A stretch of 64,000 nucleotides of DNA, taken from contig NZ_LT984798.1 in NCBI RefSeq assembly GCF_900243745.1, positions 682,001-746,000 of the forward strand, given 5' to 3'. The stretch is from Desulfovibrio sp. G11. Lineage in GTDB: Bacteria > Desulfobacterota > Desulfovibrionia > Desulfovibrionales > Desulfovibrionaceae. The position numbers and the translations under genes are program-made. Positions 5,855 to 49,236 of this stretch are shown here, in pieces; the stretch's first letter is position 1, and each line of letters starts with the position of its first letter. The notes beneath the pieces are model-generated. The model searched no databases, was not told where the DNA came from, and saw nothing but the letters and a program-made list of their open reading frames with translations.

Positions 5855-5876
5855 TTTGAGAATGCATGTTCTCAAA
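5855..5876. repeat. Palindrome TTTGAGAA-N6-TTCTCAAA
   Basis: Perfect 8-bp arms around TGCATG, 12 bases after tsaB. Near-copies occur at 35470-35491 (CTTGAGAG-N6-TTCTCAAG) and 41487-41507 (TTTGAGAG-N5-TTCTCAAA), all intergenic. A half site is at about 14225. It may be an operator for a dimeric regulator or a short dispersed repeat; the sequence alone does not decide. Confidence 0.55.
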
Positions 5877-5901
5877 GCTGGCAACATGTACCCTACGGGT
5901 T

Positions 5902-6024
5902 TAGAGTAATTACGGCTTCAAATGATTGCTTAACGGTCGGCAAAGCCGTCCTACAAGCATCTGGCGACAAGAATTTGGAGACAAATCCTTGTCGAGTCTT
6001 CTTCCCGCGCGAATGTGCGTTCTC
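5902..6024. repeat. Dispersed structured element, copy A
   Basis: Shares a core of about 85 bases with 48413-48528. Identical blocks include TTCAAATGATTGCTTAACGG, CGGCAAAGCCG and CAAATCCTTGT. The core folds into two hairpins: CGGC-AAA-GCCG, and CGACAAG...CTTGTCG (about 5964-5993). In copy B the second stem is CTACAAG...CTTGTAG, a compensatory change. The outer stem seen in copy B is eroded here. It lies between tsaB and rlpA and has no coding potential. Confidence 0.6.
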
Positions 6025-6553
6025 CAGGTGAGTTATACATCCCGCCGGCGCCTAGCCACGCAAGTAAATTATACTTGCACTCCACAGCAGGCGTTCGTTC
6101 ACGCAGCCGCCAGAGCATCTTTAAAATGAAAATGCTCTGAAGCAGCTACCAGTTTACCGCGCTCTCACACACTTCGTTTGGGCCGCGCCCGCAGGCGGCT
6201 CCCCGCACACAGCCAGCTGCGCACCCTTTCACCACGCCGCTGGGCATTTTTCTGCATCCCCAATCCACATGCAGTTGCTACCCATATTCGCAGACAGCAG
6301 TGCAGCGCACAGCGCACACACACAACGATATCTGCCTGGAAGCTGCCCGAACAGTAGCGTCGGCCGGGTAGCTTTTTCTGTTGCCGCCCACATTTTCGGG
6401 CTGGATTCTTCTTTTCCGCTTGGCGCGCGGAGAGGTATTTTTGCTTCACCCTGCAAACATGCAAAACAATATACTATATTCTATTTACAGTACTCTAGCA
6501 TTTGTCTAGAAAAAATTTGCTGATAACAACTTGAATTACATATCTTTGTCAGT
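6025..6553. other. Non-coding stretch between tsaB and rlpA
   Basis: About 530 bases with no credible gene. It holds a palindromic repeat (AGAGCAT...ATGCTCT, 6114-6138) and otherwise mixed-composition sequence that becomes AT-rich toward the rlpA promoter at 6554. Confidence 0.5.
6114..6138. repeat. AGAGCAT palindromic repeat
   Basis: Arms AGAGCAT and ATGCTCT enclose an A/T-rich loop; the inner bases TTTAAAATGAAA extend the pairing partly. The ends match the terminal bases of the elements at 48413-48528 and 63850-63882, so this appears to be a short member of the same family. It is not flanked by TA here, unlike the copies that overlap stop codons. Confidence 0.5.
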
Positions 6554-35469: not shown

Positions 35470-35491
35470 CTTGAGAGTACGCATTCTCAAG
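35470..35491. repeat. Palindrome CTTGAGAG-N6-TTCTCAAG
   Basis: Second member of the TTGAGAR...TTCTCAA palindrome family, between infC and rpmI. The gap 35432-35693 has no other feature I can support; an L20-binding regulatory leader would be expected in this type of operon but I cannot recognise one. Confidence 0.5.
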
Positions 35492-35693
35492 GCCTGAACG
35501 CGGTCAGTCCGGCGGCGGCAGGATTACTATGCCTGTCTGCGGCTCGTGAAGAACGCCTGCCCACATATCCGCGAGAACAATTTTGCATTGAAGTTGTTCC
35601 AGCTCTTGCGCCTTATGGCGCTTTGGGGCATTATGCCCTTCCCCTGGCGCGTCTGCAGACCTGCCGGGTATATGTTTTCGTAAGGAGTACGCC

Positions 35694-41260: not shown

Positions 41261-41762
41261 GCGCATAGCCGCACAGCAAAGGCCGGACAAAAAACCGGCC
41301 AGAGATGCCGCAAGCGCATCGGCCCGCAGCAGGGCAATCGTGCAGTAAGGTTGCCTGACCACGGCGCGGGCAAACGTCCGCCACAAAGGCGTGGCGCAGC
41401 TTCAGCACGTGCCGCAGAGCTTGCGGATGAAGGCAGCAGCGCAGTATACCTGCATGGCTGGCTGCCAAAGCAGGCGTGTAAAAAATTTTGAGAGGTATAT
41501 TCTCAAAATAAAGATGCGCCGGGTGGGCATGACTGTAAAAAAGCGCGGTACACCGCGCGGCAAAAAACGATCAGGTGTGCAATACTGGCCGGGCATATGG
41601 TATCCGGCCGAATATCCGGTCGTTGCGCACGGTGGAACATCAGGTTGAGGCAAAGGGACGCGGGGAAGGCGACTCCTTTGCACACGGCGGCCGGGTCAGT
41701 CAGACTCTGCGGACGGCCAAGCCCGAAGGCCCTTCCCCATAACACAAGACAGAACTACTCCC
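41261..41762. other. Gap between merR and rpe
   Basis: About 500 bases without a supported gene. It contains the hairpin after merR and the palindrome at 41485-41509. The ribosome binding site of rpe is weak. Confidence 0.45.
41485..41509. repeat. Palindrome TTTTGAGAG-N5-TTCTCAAAA
   Basis: Third intergenic member of the TTGAGAR...TTCTCAA family, with longer arms (ATTTTGAGA / TCTCAAAAT) than the other two. Confidence 0.5.
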
Positions 41763-44546: not shown

Positions 44547-44739
44547 TATAAAAACATATTGCCTGACATGCCGGCGGCAGGCAGGATCAGCCTGACTGTT
44601 GCGCGGCAAGGGTTTTTCGTAAAAATTCCTGCAGGGCATGCGCATACTTCACCGGTGGCATGCTCTGGCTTGCAAGGCCCGCCCGGGCATTTGCTTTCAC
44701 TGAAAATCACGCTGCAAGTCCAACAAAGAGGAGAGCGCC

Positions 44740-48100: not shown

Positions 48101-48412
48101 CAAAAAAGCGCAGGGTAAAAAATGTCGGATTGTGCGCCGTGGCTAGCCTTGCAGACTGTACACACTTTTACGGGGCAAAGGGAACAACACGCCACCGCAC
48201 GGTCAGGTAAGGCCGTAGCCTGAACAATGCCCAAACCTGCTCAACCGGCCCACAAAAACGCAAGCACAGTGCGTGCACGGCCAAGCGCTGTGGTAAACGC
48301 CGCAAAAACATTGTGGCTATTCATCCCTTCTCCCCGCTCGGTTTGCTGTTGTCTGTTAACTCCAGCTTTACCGACTTGGGGGAGGGTGAACAACCTATTG
48401 GAATACTACACC
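48101..48412. other. Gap before the structured repeat
   Basis: About 310 bases between convergent transcription units. A short minus-strand frame with several Cys residues lacks a start codon and ribosome binding site. Nothing else is seen. Confidence 0.4.
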
Positions 48413-48528
48413 TAGAGCATTTAACGCTTCAAATGATTGCTTAACGGCCGGCAAAGCCGCCCTGCAATCATTTGGCTACAAGGAGTTACAGGCAAATCCT
48501 TGTAGGCATTTCAAGTGTGAATGCTCTA
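48413..48528. repeat. Dispersed structured element, copy B
   Basis: 116 bases bounded by TAGAGCATT (48413) and AATGCTCTA (48528), with the terminal ~22 bases forming an imperfect inverted repeat. Inside are GATTGC...GCAATC around CGGC-AAA-GCCG, and CTACAAGGA...TCCTTGTAG, so the element folds into a multi-stem cruciform. The core is shared with copy A (5902-6024). Its last three bases are the stop codon of livF. Confidence 0.65.
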
Positions 48529-49236
48529 CCCGCCCAGATAGGCTTCCCGCACGCTGGCATTGTTCAGCAGGCTCTGGGCCTTGTCTTCCATAACCACGTT
48601 GCCCACTTCCAGCACATAGCCGCGCGAAGCCAGCTTGAGGGCCGCACGTGCGTTCTGTTCCACCAGCAGCACGGTGACGCCACGCTTGTTGATGGCCCGC
48701 ACGGTCTCAAAGATGGAACGCACCAAAAGCGGGGCCAGGCCCAGCGAAGGCTCATCAAGCAGCAAAAGGCGCGGCTCGGCCATCAAGGCGCGGCCAATGG
48801 CCAGCATCTGCTGTTCGCCGCCCGAAAGCGTGCCTGCAAGCTGGTCTTTGCGCTCAAGCAGCCGCGGAAAAAGATCGAATATCCATTCCAGGGTGCGCTC
48901 ACTGCGAGCCTTGTCTTCAATGCAGAAAGCGCCCAATCGCAGATTCTCAAGCACGCTCATAACGCCAAAAACGCGCCGCCCCTCGGGCGACTGGGCAATA
49001 CCCAGCCCCACCACCTTGTGGCTCGGCAGCCGCAGAAGGTTTTGCCCTTCAAAAAGAATCTCGCCCGAAGTAGGCCGCACAAGCCCGCTGATGGACAGCA
49101 GGGTGGTGCTTTTGCCCGCGCCGTTAGCACCGAGGATGGTGACTATCTCGCCCTCTTCCACCCGCAGGTTGATGCCGTGCAGCACCTCGACGCTGCCGTA
49201 GCTCACCCGTATGTCAGAAAGTTGCAACAGGCACAT
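48526..49236 (-). CDS. livF: Branched-chain amino acid ABC transporter ATP-binding protein LivF
   Basis: 236-aa ATPase of the LIV-type importer. Walker A GANGAGKST, LSGGEQQMLAIGRALM signature, Walker B LLLLDEPSLGLAP, and switch His replaced by the usual VEQN. Last gene of livK-H-M-G-F; it begins three bases after the livG stop. Its TAG stop is formed by the end of the structured repeat, which may also end the transcript. Confidence 0.95.
   Translation of the reverse strand: MCLLQLSDIRVSYGSVEVLHGINLRVEEGEIVTILGANGAGKSTTLLSISGLVRPTSGEILFEGQNLLRLPSHKVVGLGIAQSPEGRRVFGVMSVLENLRLGAFCIEDKARSERTLEWIFDLFPRLLERKDQLAGTLSGGEQQMLAIGRALMAEPRLLLLDEPSLGLAPLLVRSIFETVRAINKRGVTVLLVEQNARAALKLASRGYVLEVGNVVMEDKAQSLLNNASVREAYLGG

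Follow-up and report, generated by a model that had tools for sequence, protein, structure and literature searches.

Two copies of a dispersed element in the window

The window, the whole 64,000-nucleotide stretch of Desulfovibrio sp. G11 DNA analysed here, contains two copies (A and B) of a short dispersed element. Copy A lies ~60 bp downstream of a gene whose product has a TsaD/TsaB-type domain, and copy B adjoins a livF-like gene on the minus strand. The features are as follows.

5902–6012, plus strand: copy A of the element (covariance model 89.3 bits, E 3e-18)
5965–5994, plus strand: hairpin 2 of copy A, with 13-nt arms CGACAAGAATTTG/CAAATCCTTGTCG
48311–48412, plus strand: another dispersed repeat (8 copies), which ends in CTAG; copy B is inserted within this CTAG
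48413–48528, plus strand: copy B, complete, with TA at both ends (covariance model 114.3 bits, E 7e-24)
48413–48421, plus strand: left terminal inverted repeat of copy B, pairing with 48520–48528
48430–48474, plus strand: hairpin 1 of copy B, with arms CAAATGATTGC/GCAATCATTTG and an inner hairpin within
48473–48508, plus strand: hairpin 2 of copy B, with arms TGGCTACAAGGAGTT/AAATCCTTGTAGGCA
48520–48528, plus strand: right terminal inverted repeat of copy B, its last 3 bases being the stop codon of the minus-strand livF gene
48526–49236, minus strand: livF-like ABC transporter ATPase gene (PF00005), whose TAG stop is the TA target on the right-hand side of copy B

The covariance model recovers both copies where the preliminary description had placed them, and the similarity is far above chance, with own-genome matches by sequence search down to E 1e-30. 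Copy A keeps the left terminal repeat and hairpins 1 and 2 and can be aligned with the family over ~95 nt. Its right terminal hairpin is decayed, leaving a right end without an intact terminal palindrome, and the end at 6024 given earlier falls inside this decayed part. In copy B, the arms of the outer inverted repeat reported in the preliminary description are 100% complementary, and this repeat is the terminal repeat of a transposon.

A further stretch of the window, at 44550–44667, gives a weak match to the model (22 bits, E 0.003) and resembles a decayed third copy (GCGGCAAGGGTTTTTCGTAAAAATTCCTGCAGGGCATG...GGCATGCTCTG). A solo terminal palindrome, CAGAGCATCTTTAAAATGAAAATGCTCTG, lies at 6111–6139, ~100 bp from copy A, and similar solo palindromes are found in relatives too (L049). 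In addition, a different short palindrome, TTTGAGAATGCATGTTCTCAAAG, is located at 5855–5877 and again at 35470–35492 and 41487–41508; related palindromes lie close to insertions elsewhere in the genus, with 12 in 0.7 Mb of retrieved loci against 0 in a reversed control.

Anatomy and distribution of the family

Full copies are 118–129 bp long, begin with TAGAGC and end with GCTCTA, and carry 23-nt terminal inverted repeats that match at 19 of 23 positions; the family consensus is TAGAGCAATTAACGCTTCAAATGATTGCTTAACGGTCGGCAAAGCCGCCCTACAATCATTTGGCGACAAGGATTTGGAGACAAATCCTTGTAGAGCATTTCAAGTGTGAAATGCTCTA. The interior of the element is composed of three adjacent hairpins and codes for nothing. Specifically, hairpin 1 is formed by CAAATGATTG/CAATCATTTG and has an inner GC-rich stem, hairpin 2 is formed by CAAGGATTTG/CAAATCCTTG, and hairpin 3 is formed by TAGAGCATTTCA/TGTGAAATGCTCTA. 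The order of the hairpins is the same in relatives (G001, G003, G017, G025, G028 and others), with different letters.

That the element is dispersed, as first described, is borne out by its copy number: the own genome (a single contig of 3,416,440 bases) contains ~40 copies by sequence search and at least 44 by the covariance model. By the same model, 26 of the 79 genus members carry the element, in a patchy distribution, and some of them hold at least 46 near-identical copies, counts near 46 being lower bounds since no more than 46 candidates were scored in any genome. One such genome is G025, while its neighbour in the genus search listing, G068, has none, which suggests that the near-identical copies of G025 arose in a recent burst. 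A search of 24 genomes from other genera of the order returned no copy, and the named genome collection yielded a single match, a Desulfovibrionales MAG contig (L031) bearing a copy that shares 98% identity with the consensus. No match was found in a search for phage or plasmid carriage of the element. In the literature that was searched, no MITE or repeat derived from IS630 has been described for Desulfovibrio. The repeat is a new family of an already known kind, the IS630 MITE.

The element inserts at TA

Well preserved copies start and end with TA. By searching the joined flanks of G017 insertions in sister species, we identified 11 insertions with empty orthologous sites in G088, G070, G066 or G064, of which 8 have exactly one TA at the junction; the element thus has precise empty sites and a duplicated TA target. 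Furthermore, one insertion is flanked by TG on both sides and its empty site holds one TG, indicating that the dinucleotide belongs to the target. At 38 insertion sites, TA is preceded by C in 29 cases, T in 8 and G in 1 and followed by G in 25, A in 10 and T in 3, making the preferred insertion site mostly CTAG. A CTAG preference has been reported for IS630, going by the title of Tenzen and Ohtsubo 1991 as cited in PMC2170065. In G001, one TA is common to two MITEs. For copy A, an empty site was sought in relatives, where the flanks fail to align across the junction.

Terminal repeats are shared with IS630 elements of the genus

The genus contains autonomous elements of 995 bp (L115) and 993 bp (L117) with 23-bp inverted repeats starting with TAGAGC. 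The 322-codon open frame of L117 encodes an IS630 transposase (NF033545, E 8e-57; PF13358), and genes for IS630 transposases in the genus end at ...GGATATGAACTATTTCAAGTGTGAAATGCTCTA and similar sequences. The terminal repeat of the MITE is alike at 18–19 of 23 positions to the left end of L115, and the 3′ end of the G001 IS630 element, ATTTCAAGTGTGAAATGCTCTA, is identical to the right end of the MITE at 22 of 23 bases. The MITE therefore has the ~23-bp TAGAGC... terminal repeats and the TA-bounded ends of the IS630 elements of the genus (L115, L117 and the 3′ end in L113), but whereas those are ~995 bp long and encode a DDE transposase, the MITE retains the ends only, and its hairpins are not seen inside them.

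In the own genome, a DDE_3 profile search gave no match. Using the C-terminal 63 residues of the transposase as query, we detected a relic, a decayed IS630 transposase C-terminus at genome positions 479005–479187, the end of which touches a MITE copy; the resident IS630 transposase appears to have been lost. At this junction (L127/L219, genome positions 478917–479187) the relic abuts a MITE in which the IS end stands in place of the right terminal hairpin, an arrangement that may record either the origin of the MITE or a later insertion. G017 and G025, which have the most uniform copies, gave no DDE_3 match either, so that in these two genomes the transposase responsible for mobilisation is lost or was not found.

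We conclude, with a probability of roughly 0.95, that A and B both represent a non-autonomous MITE belonging to the IS630/Tc1-mariner family, presumably mobilised in trans by an IS630 transposase. In the proposed mechanism, the transposase would recognise in trans the ~23-bp ends TAGAGCAATTAACGCTTCAAATG / CATTTCAAGTGTGAAATGCTCTA, and the element would be inserted at TA, preferably within CTAG, with duplication of the TA. ISY100 (Tc1/mariner/IS630), which is a complete element and encodes a transposase of its own, also inserts into TA and duplicates it (PMC2170065). The closest parallel, in a comparison of mechanism, is RUP, a pneumococcal MITE of IS630-Spn1 that is 107 bp long, inserts at TA and reaches ~100 copies per genome (PMC2229807, PMC3049150). 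Both are similar in length, have IS630-like terminal repeats, insert at TA and can form hairpins. The present family differs from RUP in its host phylum, in a three-hairpin interior with a fold conserved across species, in the presence of inverted hairpins, and in a local transposase reduced to a relic.

The hairpin 2 pair is commonly a mismatch

The preliminary description had cited one pair of hairpin 2, CGACAAG/CTTGTCG in copy A and CTACAAG/CTTGTAG in copy B, as a site where both sides changed together. The letters are quoted correctly, but the wider alignment does not sustain that account. In 32 own-genome copies, column 67 with column 95, with counts read by eye from the printed alignment, is G.A in 14, T-A in 8, G-C in 7, C-G in 2 and T-C in 1, and it is G.A in 18 of 18 related sequences. 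Further copies unpaired at the same positions, which the preliminary description had named as evidence that would count against its reading, are thus present. The mismatch, being common locally and universal in these relatives, is probably the ancestral state, and the G-C of copy A and the T-A of copy B are accordingly separate single steps from it, on opposite arms.

The paired state is nevertheless somewhat enriched (17 of 32 copies, versus 12.1 expected from column composition; p 0.02, with copies that are not independent), and among the 15 copies that seem to be one step from G.A (T-A in 8, G-C in 7) no derivative is unpaired. These pairing-restoring derivatives fit either selection for pairing or the copying of one arm from the other.

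Covariation and inversion of hairpins

Beyond this pair, the fold is well kept between species. In 40 sequences aligned by sequence with MAFFT, 87.8% of cells pair, compared with 34–42% in slid controls, for a structure drawn by hand from the same sequences, which favours the true register over slid ones. A check for further covarying pairs shows that in 20 of 39 pairs both partners differ between species (0 of 500 shuffles as high), and the covariation score is 0.243, compared with 0.115 shuffled and at most 0.093 slid, in a test whose cells are non-independent owing to species subfamilies. The earlier statement that the folded form matters is therefore upheld in part: other pairs do covary between species, while the quoted pair is not evidence for it and a mechanism acting on DNA can mimic the signal.

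In addition to being conserved in pairing, the hairpins are inverted in some MITE copies. The loop of hairpin 2 is TCTC or a near variant, rather than GAGA, in 9 of 33 aligned local copies, and the relic-adjacent copy in L219 brings the number of inverted hairpins 2 to 10. In L018, L020, L024 and L219, the asymmetric sequence GAGTTGGAGACAAATC, as found in L017, is turned into GATTTGTCTCCAACTC, its exact reverse complement, with one further change in the inverted stem of L219. In L029, the mismatch at the foot of the hairpin is T.C, as expected for a hairpin inverted down to its base. Hairpin 3 behaves likewise, with TTTCAAGTATGAA in L005, L012 and L211 versus TTTCATACTTGAA in L017 and L018. 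The tree of local copies is star-like, inversion requiring 8 label changes on it versus 8.07 when shuffled.

When a DNA polymerase switches template at a quasipalindrome, the described outcomes are homogenised arms and an inverted spacer, and such switching has been argued to create compensatory changes in RNA genes (PMC8604942, PMC8794818 for the products; PMC8794818 for the argument). The changes seen here are alike in both respects; the described cases come from yeast coding sequence and RNA genes, whereas ours are bacterial MITE copies. Template switching at DNA hairpins would yield both matched arms and inverted hairpins and may be the mechanism behind the inversions. We tentatively put forward, at somewhat under even odds, the idea that template switching on DNA, and not selection on RNA, preserves the complementarity of the MITE hairpins and repeatedly inverts them. 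Since arm correction together with inversion is the footprint of template switching, covariation in this family is no proof of RNA function.

A different explanation is that the element owes its retention to a function as structured RNA, such as a stabiliser of mRNA 3′ ends or a processing site, with the covariation resulting from selection on the RNA fold. The covarying pairs and the lack of unpaired one-step copies agree with this, as do single-strand fold z values of −6 to −9 for copy B (z −6.1) and two well preserved copies. However, copy A has a fold z of only −1.9, and the patchy spread, the bursts and the precise empty sites form the pattern of a transposon. Moreover, template switching gives the same pairing-restoring changes plus the inversions, which selection on RNA does not predict. 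A search of Rfam found no match at the element, with only tRNA and SRP RNA above the gathering score, and a known RNA family was rejected on this basis. We therefore regard maintenance as a functional RNA as unlikely.

Copy B at the livF stop codon

In most relatives, livF has a TA-containing stop codon at the same place, and copy B thus probably used that TA; judging from these sequences, the insertion most likely supplied the TAG stop. The position of copy B directly after the livF stop codon had raised the idea that it is an intrinsic transcription terminator. An insertion that targeted the TA within the stop accounts for this position, and a G+C-rich stem with a T tract is absent from the element on both strands. 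A terminator role at livF is accordingly very improbable. Across the own genome, an open frame of at least 100 codons has its stop in the TAG of the element at 16 of 68 copy ends, where the frames are ORFs only and the ends of partly decayed copies are approximate; a gene that stops in the element is put forward for livF alone.

The ~100-bp dispersed repeat on the other side of copy B (window 48311–48412; L272–L279) has 8 copies in the genome and ends in ...CCTATTGGAACACTACACCTAG. A MITE sits in the terminal CTAG of 3 of these 8 copies, and L277 has an inverted copy of the end of this repeat on its other side.

Mobilisation as a REP-like palindrome family by a RAYT/IS200-type (HUH, Y1) transposase, which the short, palindromic, high-copy nature of the element and Y1_Tnp matches in the own genome might suggest, is scarcely credible and, like an IS200/605 origin, is contradicted by the duplication of TA and the absence of a Y1_Tnp match from the copy-rich G017 and G025; the element ends, in addition, match IS630 ends. 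Elements of the REP/RAYT and IS200/605 class are not known to duplicate TA on insertion.

Implications

Assignment of the element to IS630 MITEs explains a recurrent small repeat of Desulfovibrionales genomes and identifies the family that mobilises it. The history of the hairpin 2 pair illustrates that a "compensatory change" between two copies can reflect two independent single steps away from a mismatch. If template switching, and not selection on RNA, maintains and inverts the hairpins, the family would be a natural, many-copy record of covariation without RNA function, and would call for caution in covariation-based RNA discovery. The inverted hairpins are concrete loci at which selection on RNA and template switching can be told apart.
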